A stretch of DNA of 64,000 nucleotides, taken from Desulfomicrobium baculatum DSM 4028. GTDB taxonomy: Bacteria > Desulfobacterota > Desulfovibrionia > Desulfovibrionales > Desulfomicrobiaceae. The translations under genes and the position numbers were made by a program. Location of the stretch: positions 684,501 through 748,500 of the forward strand of contig NC_013173.1 of assembly GCF_000023225.1 (NCBI RefSeq), read 5' to 3'. Below, one piece after another: positions 38,009-44,117 of this stretch. The first letter of the stretch is position 1. The number at the start of each line of letters is the position of its first letter. The notes beneath the pieces are model-generated. The model saw only the letters and a list, made by a program, of their open reading frames with translations. It was not told where the DNA came from and did not search any database.

Positions 38009-38848
38009 TTAGAGGCCCAAGGCGGCGGGGCAGAACTCGCCCTTGTAGACGAGTTGGGCTTTGCCGCGCAGGAAAATATCCGAGCCGTGAACGCTGATCT
38101 CAAGCACCTCGCCACCCGAAGTGGTCACTTTGGCCTTGGATTCGCACAGACCCAGCGCGTGGGCCACGGCCACGGAGGCCGCAGCGCCCGTGCCGCAGGC
38201 ATAGGTTTCGCTCTCCACGCCGCGTTCGTAGGTGCGCAGCAGAAGCTCGCCTCGGCTGACGACCTGGATGAAGTTGGCGTTGGTTCCGGCCGGGGCGAAG
38301 TGGTCGTGATAGCGGACCTTGGCTCCAAGCCCTTTCACGTCGATGCTCTTGACGTCGGGCGTGACTATGACCGCGTGCGGGACGCCGGTGTTGGCGAAAT
38401 GGGCTGCAAAGGTTCGGTCGTCCAGATCAAGGGTGAAGTTCAGGGCCATGTCCCGCGCCGGGGTCAGCTGCACGTCCACTTCGCCTGCCTCGGGGAAGAC
38501 TTGTGCGTGCACCGTGCCCGCATCGGTGAGCATGAGGTGTTTGGCCGGGGCCATGCCCAGCATGTAGGCCAGGAGGGTGGCGCAGCGCGACCCGTTGCCG
38601 CACATCTCGGCCCTGGAGCCGTCGGCATTGAAAAAGTGCCAACGCGTTGCGGCCTGCCCGGAGTCGTCAATTTCCAGAAATATGATGCCGTCGGCGCCGA
38701 TGCTGAAAGCGTGAGGGCACAGCGTTTTGGCCCAGCGGGGCATGTCCTCGGGGGAGATGGTCTTGGCGCGGTTGTCGATGACGATGAAGTCGTTGCCGCT
38801 GCCTTGCATCTTGTAAAAAAACTGGGTCGGGCCGGTGAAAATGGTCAT
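38009..38848 (-). CDS. dapF: Diaminopimelate epimerase
   Basis: A 279-residue epimerase with both catalytic cysteines: EMCGNGSRC near residue 78 and [10 protein letters not shown] near 220. N-terminal [13 protein letters not shown] is also typical. It converts LL- to meso-diaminopimelate for lysine and peptidoglycan. It sits between the selenoprotein gene (70 bases upstream) and dapA on the same strand. Confidence 0.95.
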
Positions 38849-38918: not shown

Positions 38919-39773
38919 CTAGGGGTTGAAGATGGCGTTGATTGTCGGGTCCGCGGCGACCGTTCCGCCAAGGGGCACAGACTCGGTGAAAACCGTCGTT
39001 TGCGGTTCCCAGACCATCTTTGTGCCGGGCGCCGGCAGCGTGGGGATGGTCACACTGAGGATGCTTCTGCCTTTGGTGAAGGCCCGCGTCCAGAGCAGCG
39101 AGTTGTCGCGCAGGTAGAGCGCTGTATAGCCCGGGCCCTGCCCCGATCCGAGAATGATGTCGAAAGCCGCGCCGTGGCGGTCAATGAAGTCCTGCTCCCG
39201 GTTCGCTCCCCAGGTGCTGACCCCGATGATCAGATTGTGCTTGCCGTTCGTGCGCAGCGATTCGGCGAAATCGGCGGCCTTCCTTTCAATGTCCGGGTCG
39301 GGCTGGCCGCTGTCCGGGAAAAGGACAAAGGCCAGGCTGCCGTCCGGCACGTTCTTGACGACCAGCTTCGGCTCGCCCAAAGGGCCGCTCCACACCGGCC
39401 CGGCTTCCAAGCCTGCATGTTCAAAGACCGTTGCGTCGTTGGGAGCGCGCAGCGCGATGTCGTAGCCGAGCAGGTCGTAGGCTTTCTTGAGCTTGAAAAT
39501 GATGGAAGGGTGCCTGTCCCTCTCCAGGCCGAAAGGGGAAAACTCGTATCCGCCGCTGACAATGATGGTGTTTGCACCTTCGCGTGCGGCTTTGAAACTG
39601 GTGGCCCGCCGGGCCAACCCCCCGTAGGTTTTCCCCCCTCAGCTGGGACAGGGATCGAATTCACCCAGGCTGTTGGCGGTAAAGAGGATGGTTGTTTCAG
39701 CCCCGGCCAGGGCCGGCGAAAGGAGGCCAAGGGCCAGGACAAGCCAGAGCGCGGCATGGACGCGTATGTGCAC
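38919..39773 (-). CDS. Probable secreted selenoprotein, UshA/5'-nucleotidase-like (TGA at codon 45 read as Sec)
   Basis: Read through one in-frame TGA (39641-39639), the gene encodes 284 residues: a signal peptide from GTG 39773 (GAGG six bases upstream; cleavage near ALAGA), then TTILFTANSLGEFDPCPS, the TGA codon, and GGKTYGGLARRATSF. The frame and protein-like sequence continue unbroken on both sides. The motif is C-P-S-U, where relatives would have CPxC, and a stable hairpin follows the TGA. The rest resembles metallophosphatase/UshA-like proteins, though the usual DxH metal ligands are not at the N-terminus; the Cys/Sec pair may bind metal or be redox active. It starts 10 bases after the MinD-like gene. 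A pseudogene stop is the alternative. Confidence 0.82.
39600..39641 (-). promoter_or_regulatory. UGA(Sec) codon and bacterial SECIS-like hairpin
   Basis: The TGA is at 39641-39639. Nineteen bases later a stem forms: TGGCCC (39616-39611), loop GGC, GGGCCA (39607-39602), extended by GG/CC outside a bulged T. The G-containing apical loop about 28-30 bases past the UGA is in the range used by bacterial SelB-dependent elements. Confidence 0.65.
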
Positions 39774-39783
39774 GGGAGCCTCT

Positions 39784-40590
39784 TCAGATCAGGGGTTTGA
39801 GGATTGGGCTGCGGGAGATGAGATCTTTGAGCCGGGTTCGGCGGTCCATGATCTTTTTTGCGATTTCGCGGATGTCCTGGGCAGCCTGACAGCCGGGCGC
39901 GAATTTCAGCAGCGGGACCTGATGCCGGACGGACTCCGTGACCATGGGGTCGCGGTGCACCACGCCAAGCAGGCTGATGGGCAGGTTCAGGAAATGCCCG
40001 CAGGCCTGGGCCAGGCGCTCGTAGGCGTTTTTGGCCTCTTTGTGCGATTCGGCCATGTTTACGATGACCTGGAAATTCTTGATCTGATGCTGGGTGAAAA
40101 GCACCTTGATCAGGGCATAGCTGTCGGTCAGGGACGTGGGTTCAGGGGTGATGACCACGATCCGCTCCTGAGGCATGGCCGCGAATGAAAGCACCGTCGG
40201 GCTGATGCCGGCGCCCAGATCAAGGACCAGGAAGTTGTAGCGTCTGAACAGGGCGTCGAGCTTGCCCAGCAGCAAACTCTGCACGTCCTCGTCCATCTCC
40301 ACCAGCTCGGCCACTCCGGAGGCGGAAGGCAGCAGGACGAGTCCGTCTCCGGCCAGGGGGATGACCACGTTTTCGGCCGAGGCATCACCGAGCAGATCCT
40401 GCAGGTTTTTTTCAGGGGAGAGGCCAAGGAGCACGTCCAGGTTGGCCAGTCCCAGGTCGGCGTCCAGCAGGATAAGGGAATTGCCGAGGTCATGCAGGGC
40501 AAAGCAGAGGTTCAGGGCGAGATTGGTCTTGCCTACGCCGCCTTTGCCGCTGGCAACGGCGATGCTGAGTGTCGTATTGGCTTCTGTCAT
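39784..40590 (-). CDS. MinD/ParA-family ATPase, FlhG (YlxH)-like
   Basis: A 268-residue deviant-Walker ATPase: SGKGGVGKTNLALNLC near residues 15-30, LLDADLGLANLD with the switch region near 45-56, and LDLGAGISPTVLSF near 125. The GLANLDVLLGL stretch is typical of FlhG/MotR, which controls flagellar number and placement. No flagellar gene is nearby, so the target may differ. AAGGA precedes ATG 40590. It lies between the GGDEF gene (13 bases) and the selenoprotein gene (10 bases). Confidence 0.83.
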   Translation of the reverse strand: MTEANTTLSIAVASGKGGVGKTNLALNLCFALHDLGNSLILLDADLGLANLDVLLGLSPEKNLQDLLGDASAENVVIPLAGDGLVLLPSASGVAELVEMDEDVQSLLLGKLDALFRRYNFLVLDLGAGISPTVLSFAAMPQERIVVITPEPTSLTDSYALIKVLFTQHQIKNFQVIVNMAESHKEAKNAYERLAQACGHFLNLPISLLGVVHRDPMVTESVRHQVPLLKFAPGCQAAQDIREIAKKIMDRRTRLKDLISRSPILKPLI

Positions 40591-40603
40591 ATCGGTCCTT
40601 GTT

Positions 40604-41446
40604 CTACTCCGCGCCTGAAGAAGGGTCGGAGAATGAGGAAAAAAGAAAGCGTTTTTCGTTCTGGTGCACCAGTGACTGTTCCTCGCCATAGCCGAGGTCC
40701 AGGATGGGCGAGGTCTCGATCCTGTTCTTTCCGGTCCGCTTGGCGCGGTACAAGGCCTTGTCCGCCTCGGCCAGCAGCTTGACCGGATCAGGGGTCAGTT
40801 TGCCCCGATAGCTTGCCACACCCATGGACATGGTCATGGTGAGCCGTGCGTCGCCGCACGTGATTCTGGTCGCCTGAATGATCGACTGGATGCGCTGCAG
40901 CAGCTTCAAGGCCCGGGCCAGTCCCGTGCCGGGCAGCAGCAGGGCGAACTCCTCGCCACCGATGCGGGCCGCCGTGTCGATCATTCTCATTTCGTTAAGC
41001 AAGATTGACGCCACGGTTTTGATGACATCGTCTCCGCAGGGGTGTCCGTAGGTGTCGTTGACGGCCTTGAAGTTGTCCAGGTCCATGATGCACAGCGTCA
41101 GTGGCGTCTTGAAGCGCGAAGAGCGTTCGACCTCCATGACCATGGTCTGGTCGAATCCCCGGCGGTTGGCCAGGCCGGTCAATGGATCCAGGCCCTGCAA
41201 GACGGTCAGGTGCTCGATGTGTTCCTTGAGCCGCACCAGCGCCGGAAATTTGTCGCCGTGCAGGGGCACGACGACCCAATTCCCCAGATTCTTCTGGCGC
41301 AGCCGTTCGGGCCAGGACGGATCGGAGCGGATCAATCGAACCAGGGCGGCCACCCCGGAAATGACCGGGGAAAGCCGCAATTCCTGTTCCAGGACCTCAA
41401 GTTCGCCCAGCAGCGCCTCGTCAGGAGGAAGATTATGATTTGCCAT
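40604..41446 (-). CDS. GGDEF-domain diguanylate cyclase
   Basis: A 280-residue protein. The C-terminal GGDEF domain starts at LQGLDPLTGLANRRGFDQ (near residue 95), with substrate motif DLDNFKAVNDTYGHPCGD and active site ARIGGEEFALLLPG. An RxxD inhibitory site (RMID) lies five residues before GGEEF, so product feedback is likely. The N-terminal about 90 residues are helical with no known sensor. It should make cyclic di-GMP. The start overlaps the end of prfB by 14 bases. Confidence 0.88.
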   Translation of the reverse strand: MANHNLPPDEALLGELEVLEQELRLSPVISGVAALVRLIRSDPSWPERLRQKNLGNWVVVPLHGDKFPALVRLKEHIEHLTVLQGLDPLTGLANRRGFDQTMVMEVERSSRFKTPLTLCIMDLDNFKAVNDTYGHPCGDDVIKTVASILLNEMRMIDTAARIGGEEFALLLPGTGLARALKLLQRIQSIIQATRITCGDARLTMTMSMGVASYRGKLTPDPVKLLAEADKALYRAKRTGKNRIETSPILDLGYGEEQSLVHQNEKRFLFSSFSDPSSGAE

Positions 41447-42543
41447 GCAGGTACAAAAGATAATTGTGTATGAATGCGTCAATGTTGCCGTCGAGCACCG
41501 AGTCGACGTTGCTGGTGTCCGTGCCTGTGCGGTGGTCCTTGACCAGACGGTAGGGCTGCAGGGTGTAGGTCCTGATCTGGGAACCGAACGCGATGGCTCC
41601 CTTGGCAACATATTCGGCCTGCCGTTCGCTTGCGATTTTTTGCAGCTCGAGTTCGTAAAGGCGGGCTTTCAGGACTTTCATGGCCGCCTCCTTGTTCTTG
41701 TGCTGGGATTTTTCGTTCTGGCACTGGGCCACCAGCCCGGTGGGAATGTGCGTCACGCGCACCGCCGAGTCTGTCGTGTTCACGGACTGTCCTCCTGGTC
41801 CGCTGGAGCGGAAGATGTCGACGCGGACGTCCTCGTCCCGGATCTCGATTTCGATGTCCTGGCCTGCGTCGGGATATACGTCGACGGAGGCGAAGGAGGT
41901 GTGTCGCCGTCCGCTGGAGTCGAAGGGCGAAATGCGGATCAGGCGATGGGTCCCTTTTTCGCCTTTGAGCTGGCCGTAGGCATAGGGTCCGTGGATGTGC
42001 AGGGTCACGCTCTTGATGCCCGCCTCGTCGCCAGGCAGCAGGTCCAGAAGCTCGACCTTGAAGCCCACGCGTTCGGCGAACCGGCGGTACATGCGCAGCA
42101 GCATTTCGGCCCAGTCCTGGGACTCGGTGCCTCCGGCGCCGGGATGAATTTCGAGGATGGCCTCGCTCACATCCTCCGGATCGCTGAGCAGGGTCCGCAT
42201 CTGGGCGGCTTCGAGCTTGGCGCTCATTTCCTCCAGGGCTTCCTCCAGGGCCTGCAGCATCTCCTGGGTCTGTTCGGTGGAGGCCATCTCGACCCATTCC
42301 AGCGCGTTGTCCCTGGCTTGCAGGAGGGCTTCCCACTCATCGACCCGGCTTTCAAGCTGGGTCTTCTCCTGCAGCACCGGGGTCAGCAGTTCGGGCTTGT
42401 CCCATGCTCCGGGCGATGAGATCTGCTTTTCGATCTCATTCAGGCGTTCCTTGTTCCTGCGCAGGTCAAAGCCGCCTCCAGAAGTCGGTGAAGCGTTCGT
42501 CCAGTTGCGCGGCCTGGGCCTTAAGTTCTGAATATTGCAGCAT
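41433..42543 (-). CDS. prfB: Peptide chain release factor 2, expressed by +1 programmed frameshift
   Basis: RF2 recognises UGA and UAA. The first 25 codons (from ATG 42543) end in CGG CTT TGA; a +1 slip at CTT-T continues as GAC CTG CGC into the main frame, giving 369 residues in all. Downstream motifs are RF2-type: SPFDSSGRRHTSF (stop codon recognition) and SSGPGGQSVNTTDSAVR with the catalytic GGQ. An AGG-rich stretch precedes the slip site. The last codons overlap the GGDEF gene; lnt ends 11 bases upstream. Confidence 0.95.
42465..42477 (-). promoter_or_regulatory. prfB: RF2 autoregulatory frameshift site
   Basis: On the minus strand AGGCGG is followed by CTT TGA C: a Shine-Dalgarno-like AGG element, the slippery CTT, and the in-frame TGA followed by C. 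Low RF2 lets the ribosome pause at UGA and shift +1, as in most bacterial prfB genes. Confidence 0.9.
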
Positions 42544-42554
42544 GATGTTCTCGG

Positions 42555-44117
42555 TTACGTGTGATTTTTTCGACCTGTCCGCCAAAGAATCCCGAGGAGG
42601 GCAGACGCCAGCATGGGAAAGGTCATGTGAATGAAAAAGAAATGTTCGTGGTAAAAGGTCGTCTCTGTCAAGAGCGGTATGGCTGGGTCGTGCGCGATCT
42701 TGGTCGTGAAGAGGGCTGTTGGCCCGCGCAGGCTGCCATCGGGTCCGATAAAGGCGCTCACCCCGGAGTTGGTGGCGCGGATAATGGCCCGGTTCTGTTC
42801 CACGGCGCGCAGAATGGAGAGATGCAGGTGCTGCCACGGCGCCGACGAGCGGCCGAACCATGCGTCGTTGCTGATATTGACGAGCACGTTGGCACCGAGT
42901 TCGACTTGCTTCTGGGCCAGTTCCGGAAAGATTGCTTCATAGCAGATAAGAAGGCCCATGGCCAGCGGGCCGGTTTTGAGCGGCTCGGTGTTGCGGCCGG
43001 GCTTGAATTCGAATTGTCCGGGCACCAGCTTGGTGATGAAGGGCAGCCATTTGCCCAAGGGCACGTATTCGCCGAACGGGACAAGGTGCTCCTTGTCATA
43101 AAAGGCCAGGGACTCCCCGTTTGCGCTCAGCAGGTAGGCGCGGTTGTGTAGGACATACTGGGGCGCTCCGGGTCCGTCGGGAATGGAGTAGGCGGGCGCT
43201 CCGGCCAGGACCGGCACCTGCATCCGCGACACGCCCAGGCGCATGCCCGTGGTCAGGTCGGAAGGGTCCTGAAAATAGAAGGGCATGGCTGTTTCCGGCC
43301 AGACGACAAGGTCCGGCGCGTTTTCGGCGACGGCCTTGAACGAAAGGTCAAGGTACGTCCCGAGGATGCCCGCCTGCATGCCCTCATCCCATTTGAGGCT
43401 TTGATCGATATTGCCTTGGATCATGGATACCGAGGCCGTGGCCGCCGGGATCTGGGGGGAGCGCGTCAGCGCGGGCAGCAGGCACAGGCCGGCCAGGGGC
43501 AGCACGGCCAGACGCGTAAAACCCCTGCCAAGGACAAGGCAATGGCTCATGCCGACCAGCAGCGCGGACAGCCCGAAGCCGCCGATCCAGGCTGCCAGGC
43601 CCAGGGTTTGAGGCCAGGGCGCCATGGCCTGGGCCAGGGTCAACCATGAGAAGCCGGTCAGAAAGTGGTTGCGGAGCAGTTCCAGGCTGGCCCACAAGAG
43701 GCCCGAGGCGAGCATGGCCAAAAGATGGGAGATCCGGTGCCTGATCAGGTGCATGCCCATGCAGAACAGGCCGGCGTAGGCGGCGAGCAGGGCGCCGACC
43801 AGGACCGGGCAAGGCAGGGCCAGCGCCCAGGGCAGCCCACCGTGATCGTGGACGGGGATTGCCAGCCAGTAAAGGCTGGCGGCATAGCCGGGCAGCGCGG
43901 TCAGAAATCCGTTTTTGAAGGCCTGGGCAAAGCTTTGAGCCCGCAGCGTCGTCAGGATAAGCGCCGCGGGCAGAAGCAGGATGGCCAAGGGAAAGTGCAG
44001 AAGCGGGTTGGCGAAGCCGAACCAGGCCCCAACCAGGGCCATGCCCATGGGGCCGAAACGGTGCAAAGAATCAGGACGCTGGTTTGGAGACAATAACCCA
44101 TTGGATCTGTTTGACAT
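42555..44117 (-). CDS. lnt: Apolipoprotein N-acyltransferase
   Basis: A 520-residue inner-membrane enzyme that adds the third acyl chain to lipoproteins. N-terminal helices (six or so) precede a nitrilase-type domain with the catalytic triad: glutamate in VVWPETAMPF, lysine in YDKEHLVPFGEY, and cysteine in LLICYEAIFPE. NISNDAWFGRSSAPWQH is also conserved. ATG 44117 has AAGGA upstream and overlaps the end of the CBS gene by 47 bases; ATG 44048 would avoid the overlap but has a poorer ribosome site. Confidence 0.94.
   Translation of the reverse strand: MSNRSNGLLSPNQRPDSLHRFGPMGMALVGAWFGFANPLLHFPLAILLLPAALILTTLRAQSFAQAFKNGFLTALPGYAASLYWLAIPVHDHGGLPWALALPCPVLVGALLAAYAGLFCMGMHLIRHRISHLLAMLASGLLWASLELLRNHFLTGFSWLTLAQAMAPWPQTLGLAAWIGGFGLSALLVGMSHCLVLGRGFTRLAVLPLAGLCLLPALTRSPQIPAATASVSMIQGNIDQSLKWDEGMQAGILGTYLDLSFKAVAENAPDLVVWPETAMPFYFQDPSDLTTGMRLGVSRMQVPVLAGAPAYSIPDGPGAPQYVLHNRAYLLSANGESLAFYDKEHLVPFGEYVPLGKWLPFITKLVPGQFEFKPGRNTEPLKTGPLAMGLLICYEAIFPELAQKQVELGANVLVNISNDAWFGRSSAPWQHLHLSILRAVEQNRAIIRATNSGVSAFIGPDGSLRGPTALFTTKIAHDPAIPLLTETTFYHEHFFFIHMTFPMLASALLGILWRTGRKNHT

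Follow-up and report, generated by a model that had tools for sequence, protein, structure and literature searches.

A predicted UshA-like selenoprotein of Desulfomicrobium baculatum DSM 4028 with a nucleotidase fold lacking its metal ligands and a probable Cys-Sec redox role in the periplasm

The window, i.e., the whole 64,000-nucleotide stretch of the Desulfomicrobium baculatum DSM 4028 genome analysed here, contains on its minus strand a gene (39773..38919) that is split by a single in-frame TGA codon at 39641-39639. Translation through this codon, which corresponds to residue 45, gives a coding sequence of 284 amino acids starting with GTG and ending with TAG; it reads VHIRVHAALWLVLALGLLSPALAGAETTILFTANSLGEFDPCPS, then the TGA, then GGKTYGGLARRA and onward through to the stop, with 239 codons of open frame after the TGA. 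Residues 2-17 form a hydrophobic helix in the predicted structure, and a signal peptide was assigned at the N-terminus (Table 1). Standard ORF finding, by contrast with the read-through frame, returned only a fragment of 232 amino acids that starts at an internal TTG (39617). A preliminary description of the locus had proposed that the TGA splits one gene with a signal-peptide-like start, and that simple gene calling loses the N-terminal part of its product; both proposals were borne out. In direct terms, the present analysis confirms the gene model for this strain, including the correct start and the Sec residue. A scan of the window for further TGA-interrupted genes yielded only apparent antisense or noise candidates.

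Table 1. Features at the selenoprotein locus (coordinates in the window)
Feature	Coordinates	Strand	Basis or remark
UshA-like selenoprotein family 2 gene	38919..39773	-	NF049981, 252.2 bits, covering positions 2-261 of the 262-position profile
Predicted signal peptide, residues 1-25 (VHIRVHAALWLVLALGLLSPALAGA)	39699..39773	-	judged by eye
Shine-Dalgarno-like GAGG, 5 nt 5' of the GTG start	39779..39782	-	sequence
C42-P43-S44-U45 (CxxU) motif	39639..39650	-	C42 and U/C45 invariant across the family
TGA, read as selenocysteine (predicted), residue 45	39639..39641	-	homologue codons TGA 68, TGC 9, TGT 1
SECIS-like hairpin TGGCCC-GGC-GGGCCA	39602..39616	-	spans the Leu53-Ala54-Arg55-Arg56-Ala57 codons
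Truncated ORF from standard gene calling (TTG start, 232 aa)	38919..39617	-	
MinD-like ATPase, upstream gene of the conserved cluster	39784..40689	-	10 nt between its end and the GTG of the selenoprotein gene
Diaminopimelate epimerase (dapF)-like, downstream gene of the conserved cluster	38009..38848	-	name presumed

In most genomes, the gene was found in a cluster with the usual order lnt - prfB - GGDEF or other - MinD-like - (HU) - selenoprotein - dapF - dapA - pyrR, where lnt, dapF, dapA and pyrR, including the dapF-like gene of the window, are names that we assume from general knowledge of such sequences. This main cluster, composed mostly of housekeeping genes, gives no hint of a redox role. 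The prfB gene (RF2), located upstream at 42400-42560 (-), carries an apparent classical programmed frameshift site (GGAGGCGGCTTTGACC, CTT TGA C), and therefore the cluster would hold two different UGA recoding events approximately 3 kb apart.

A profile search against NCBIfam placed the read-through protein in NF049981, “UshA-like (seleno)protein family 2” (UshA_like_Sel_2), with 252.2 bits against a cut-off of 140. According to a 2026 review (PMC13188914), NF049981 is a GenBank-annotated selenoprotein family with the motif CxxU. The window gene shares with this family the CxxU motif, a length of approximately 280 amino acids, the UGA at the same codon and a match over the full length, and no difference from it was found. 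The gene is a member of an already known family. The UshA-like assignment made in the preliminary description is upheld by the match over the whole profile, as well as by the fold match to CD73 and UshA described below. An earlier UshA-like family with the motif CxU was reported from the GOS selenoproteome (PMC2398784), and is represented by the sister model NF041198 (UshA_like_PCGU; COG0737 UshA-like). The domain is homologous in the two families, and in both a single loop that follows motif I holds the Cys and the Sec. Nevertheless, NF041198 has CxU instead of CxxU, its members are longer and usually bear a C-terminal Cytochrome_C554 domain, and some of them, unlike the window protein, keep part of the metal site. 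The window protein, with CxxU and without CxxCH, gave a weak score of only 27.8 bits with NF041198 (cut-off 275), and no Pfam family, including Metallophos, matched it. A functional study of either family was not found in the literature.

The codon of residue 45 was compared in 78 distinct homologous genes, whose proteins were extracted from loci of relatives: it was TGA in 68, TGC in nine and TGT in one. The family scored above its cut-off in 85 of 150 relatives, and the loci missed by the extraction pattern gave the same codon picture, with one further Cys case. Members of most families of the order retain TGA, and every replacement is a Cys codon, even though many of the 78 homologues are 25-35% identical and the lowest alignment identity to the window protein is approximately 24%. 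Since the TGA recurs in independent genomes, it is not a sequencing error. In the family alignment, the invariant positions are Cys42, Cys/Sec45, Gly46, Gly51-Gly52 and Arg56, in agreement with the earlier proposal that CPxU mimics a CPxC pair: the partner Cys is invariant, and the 10 of 78 homologues that depart from TGA have Cys aligned with residue 45.

Four Sec/Cys changes are required on the tree. In five loci, all from one genus-level group (L026, L029, L032, L070 and L094), two copies stand in tandem, the first with Cys and the second with Sec. One genome that is 85% complete (G020) carries a Cys copy and no detected selA, and two others (G081 and G148) carry a Cys copy though selA is present. 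A copy at about 5109 of L054 (G019) reads NPLRA-TGA, without the partner Cys-Pro, and may represent a frameshift, an assembly error or a real exception.

The hairpin of Table 1, with its GGC loop, lies 22-37 nt 3' of the TGA; its core stem begins 22 nt past this codon, or 19 nt when three outer GGT/ACC pairs are counted. Taken singly, the window sequence gave no significant signal, either in folding of this GC-rich sequence (z = +1.24) or in a synonymous-codon test of the window gene (p = 0.16), and Rfam contained no known element matching the hairpin at the gathering or at a permissive threshold. Across homologues, stability compared with synonymous recoding also gave a weak signal (mean z -1.21 over the Sec genes; 15 of 68 with p<0.05), and the argument for the hairpin therefore relies on conserved pairing and on the choice of codons. 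For each stem pair, 62-66 of the 67 distinct Sec sequences retain pairing, and sliding the partner by 1-3 bases lowered the paired fraction from 88% to 29-49%. L023 and L058 show double changes that preserve pairing. In a set of 15 sequences with two compensatory pairs, 90 of 90 cells pair, and the covariation is matched by one of 500 shuffles. As for codon choice, the tenth codon past the TGA, which encodes Arg, is CGG in 62 of 68 Sec genes (background in the same genes, 21% CGG), and the second Arg codon of the hairpin is CGG or AGG in 61 of 68 (background 21% CGG, 12% AGG). The Ala codons of the hairpin are exclusively GCC or GCT in Sec genes. Most Cys genes use CGC for the second Arg and GCG for Ala, so that the stem is broken. 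The hairpin is significant across homologues, not from the window sequence by itself. The SECIS-like hairpin with a G-containing loop noted in the preliminary description is accordingly a conserved feature of the Sec genes that is degraded in the Cys genes. Alternative possible hairpins were seen by eye in a few lineages, e.g., one with a GGTCTG loop in L061.

The four sel genes that the preliminary description proposed to look for are all present in the D. baculatum genome: selA (625 bits), selB (362 bits), selC (anticodon TCA) and selD (324 bits). In four incomplete MAGs (G008, G032, G040 and G059), the TGA gene was found but selA was not detected, probably due to missing sequence. For D. 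baculatum, a study of a related strain has dealt with an active selenocysteine system (PMC3035215). The earlier selenoprotein call is sustained by the TGA/Cys interchange, the conserved hairpin and the full sel set, and selenocysteine insertion is strongly supported, about as well as sequence comparison allows. In the proposed mechanism, the in-frame UGA would be decoded as selenocysteine by SelB and tRNA-Sec, aided by the hairpin located just downstream. The selD gene (G000:C1:3136326-3137243; L097, L100) also contains an in-frame TGA, and likely encodes a selenoprotein itself.

The structure predicted with AlphaFold2 from a 53-member alignment (pLDDT 94.7, pTM 0.90) matched CD73 and UshA in a Foldseek search (best E 3.6e-15, query TM 0.67, target TM 0.39). 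The match is limited to the N-terminal domain; the window protein consists of one domain, and neither the model nor the Foldseek comparison contains the C-terminal substrate-binding domain of UshA/CD73. With the 5'-nucleotidases UshA and CD73 and with SoxB, the protein shares the N-terminal metallophosphoesterase fold and a GG(V/L)ARR segment, but it has lost the metal ligands and the C-terminal domain and has gained the CxxU loop. The ligand positions (D-x-H, GD, GNHE, H and HxH) are those that we take from general knowledge of UshA/CD73. A phmmer search of the single protein against the PDB gave nothing useful, and the family profile was needed for the alignment. In alignments of this profile with 2z1a and SoxB, and in the superfamily alignment, all aligned ligands of the dinuclear metal site are replaced: the motif I Asp by N34 and its His by residue 36, which is variable across the family (L36 in the window protein), and the motif II Asp by G75, while motif III GNHE is lost, the distal His is P/T187 and H-x-H has become x-G-x. 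Besides Cys42 and Sec45, the residues Glu77, Trp188 and Arg230 are conserved. Intermediate relatives keep some ligands (D-x-H in L143, GD plus two His in L146), so that family 2 seems to stand at the final stage of a gradual disappearance of the metal site, with the Cys-Sec loop as the part that stayed constant. The D. baculatum genome also encodes a second UshA-like paralogue (G000:C1:631131-631736; L098:2709-3905), which has no Cys or Sec in the loop and keeps the motif II Asp.

Many more UGA-containing UshA-like genes were found across the phylum. Long forms carry PCGU or CGC together with a C-terminal Cytochrome_C554 domain in the same polypeptide: a CxU/Cys UshA-like domain is followed by a multihaem (CxxCH) C-terminus in L145, L146, L147, L149, L150 and L154, and Pfam confirmed Cytochrome_C554 in all of these except L149. 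With regard to genomic context outside the main cluster, a Cys paralogue lies in a pseudopilin/ExeA/GspE-like operon in L068, L075 and L077. A Sec paralogue was found in an operon with genes for a metal-resistance protein, CcmF/NrfE, a TPR protein, a heavy-metal (Zn/Cd/Pb-type) P-type ATPase and an M23 peptidase, seen in two genomes only (L050:2156-10257 and L078:476-8960). No CcmH/NrfF-like gene was seen within these two operons, and it is suggested that the CxxU protein might occupy the place expected for NrfF/CcmH, a CxxC protein.

Taken together, the sequence comparisons and the structural model indicate that the gene quite probably encodes an exported NF049981 selenoprotein in which a nucleotidase fold that has lost its metal site serves a periplasmic Cys-Sec redox role. 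A single calcineurin-like/UshA N-terminal domain, deprived of the metal ligands and of the nucleotide-binding C-terminal domain, would not be expected to hydrolyse nucleotides. In the invariant Cys42-x-x-Sec45, which follows motif I of what was once the active site, the two residues are most likely joined by a reversible selenenylsulfide. The motif, its invariance and the fusions of relatives point to a periplasmic thiol/selenol oxidoreductase or electron carrier, which could plausibly exchange electrons with cytochromes of the c type or with the machinery that matures them. A redox-type CxxU is shared with thioredoxin-like selenoproteins (SelW-like, AhpD-like), but these have an unrelated fold, whereas here the motif sits on a phosphoesterase scaffold. 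The redox role is favoured because members of the sister family carry multihaem cytochrome c554-type domains in the same polypeptide; on the other hand, such fusions were found in the sister family and none in family 2. The Sec paralogue in the operon with CcmF/NrfE also speaks for this role, but that operon comes from two genomes only.

The CxxU pair could instead be metal-binding or structural, and metal handling is the main rival to the redox role. According to this alternative, the selenoprotein would bind or handle a metal ion, a metalloid or a haem-related thiol through its CxxU, with the scaffold acting as a binding protein. The persistence of Cys42, Sec45, Glu77, Trp188 and Arg230 after the loss of all UshA metal ligands would fit such a function, as would the operon in which two paralogues accompany genes for a metal-resistance protein and a P-type ATPase of the Zn/Cd/Pb type. 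It is nevertheless considered unlikely, as known CxxU pairs are mostly redox (PMC2398784), the cytochrome fusions of the sister family point elsewhere, and the metal operon is confined to two genomes. Much less probable still is an active UshA-like nucleotidase or phosphoesterase that carries selenocysteine incidentally. Despite the clear fold match to CD73 and UshA, the replacement of ligands by N34, L36 and G75, the replacement of motif III and of the distal histidines, and the lack of a Pfam Metallophos match all speak against it; given the replaced ligands and the absent C-terminal substrate domain, nucleotidase activity of the window protein is unlikely and this candidate was rejected.

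Two other explanations are a pseudogene, in which the TGA would genuinely terminate translation, and a sequencing error, in which the TGA would be a misread base; the downstream ORF would then be a remnant or an independent gene. They would agree with the output of standard gene calling, which shows the downstream ORF alone, and with a hairpin that is insignificant in the window taken singly. The comparison with homologues rules out these explanations, leaving them a negligible probability: 68 of the 78 distinct homologues, drawn from most families of the order, have TGA at this codon and the others encode Cys, the hairpin is conserved and the sel set is complete.

The main use of the proposed periplasmic redox role is that it gives an uncharacterised family of selenoproteins a function open to testing: with the catalytic metal site lost, no invariant reactive feature is left except the Cys-Sec pair, which relatives carry fused to cytochromes. 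If true, sulfate reducers would employ a dead nucleotidase scaffold in selenium-based periplasmic redox chemistry. A more far-reaching scenario is advanced only tentatively and seems rather doubtful as a whole. In it, a nucleotidase fold was converted into a periplasmic selenium redox module that exchanges electrons with multihaem c-type cytochromes and may, in the NrfE-TPR operon, substitute for CcmH/NrfF, the thiol reductase that acts in haem attachment, the metal ligands being lost as the Cys-Sec loop took over, and with UGA subfamilies (e.g., L101, L137-L143, L152) that fall below the profile cut-offs.

Among these subfamilies, short forms from other families of the phylum (L137-L141, L143 and L152) have an in-frame TGA in PC(P/H)xU, e.g., PCPSU, and reach 57-123 bits with NF049981 (cut-off 140) and 127-233 bits with NF041198 (cut-off 275). 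In G012, which belongs to the same genus as the window genome, a gene for 291 amino acids (L101:2550-3422) has an in-frame TGA in VEPCPGU and scores 45 bits with NF049981 and 35 bits with NF041198. By these profile scores, L101 and the short forms are covered by neither NCBIfam model, and L101 possibly represents an undescribed UshA-like selenoprotein subfamily.
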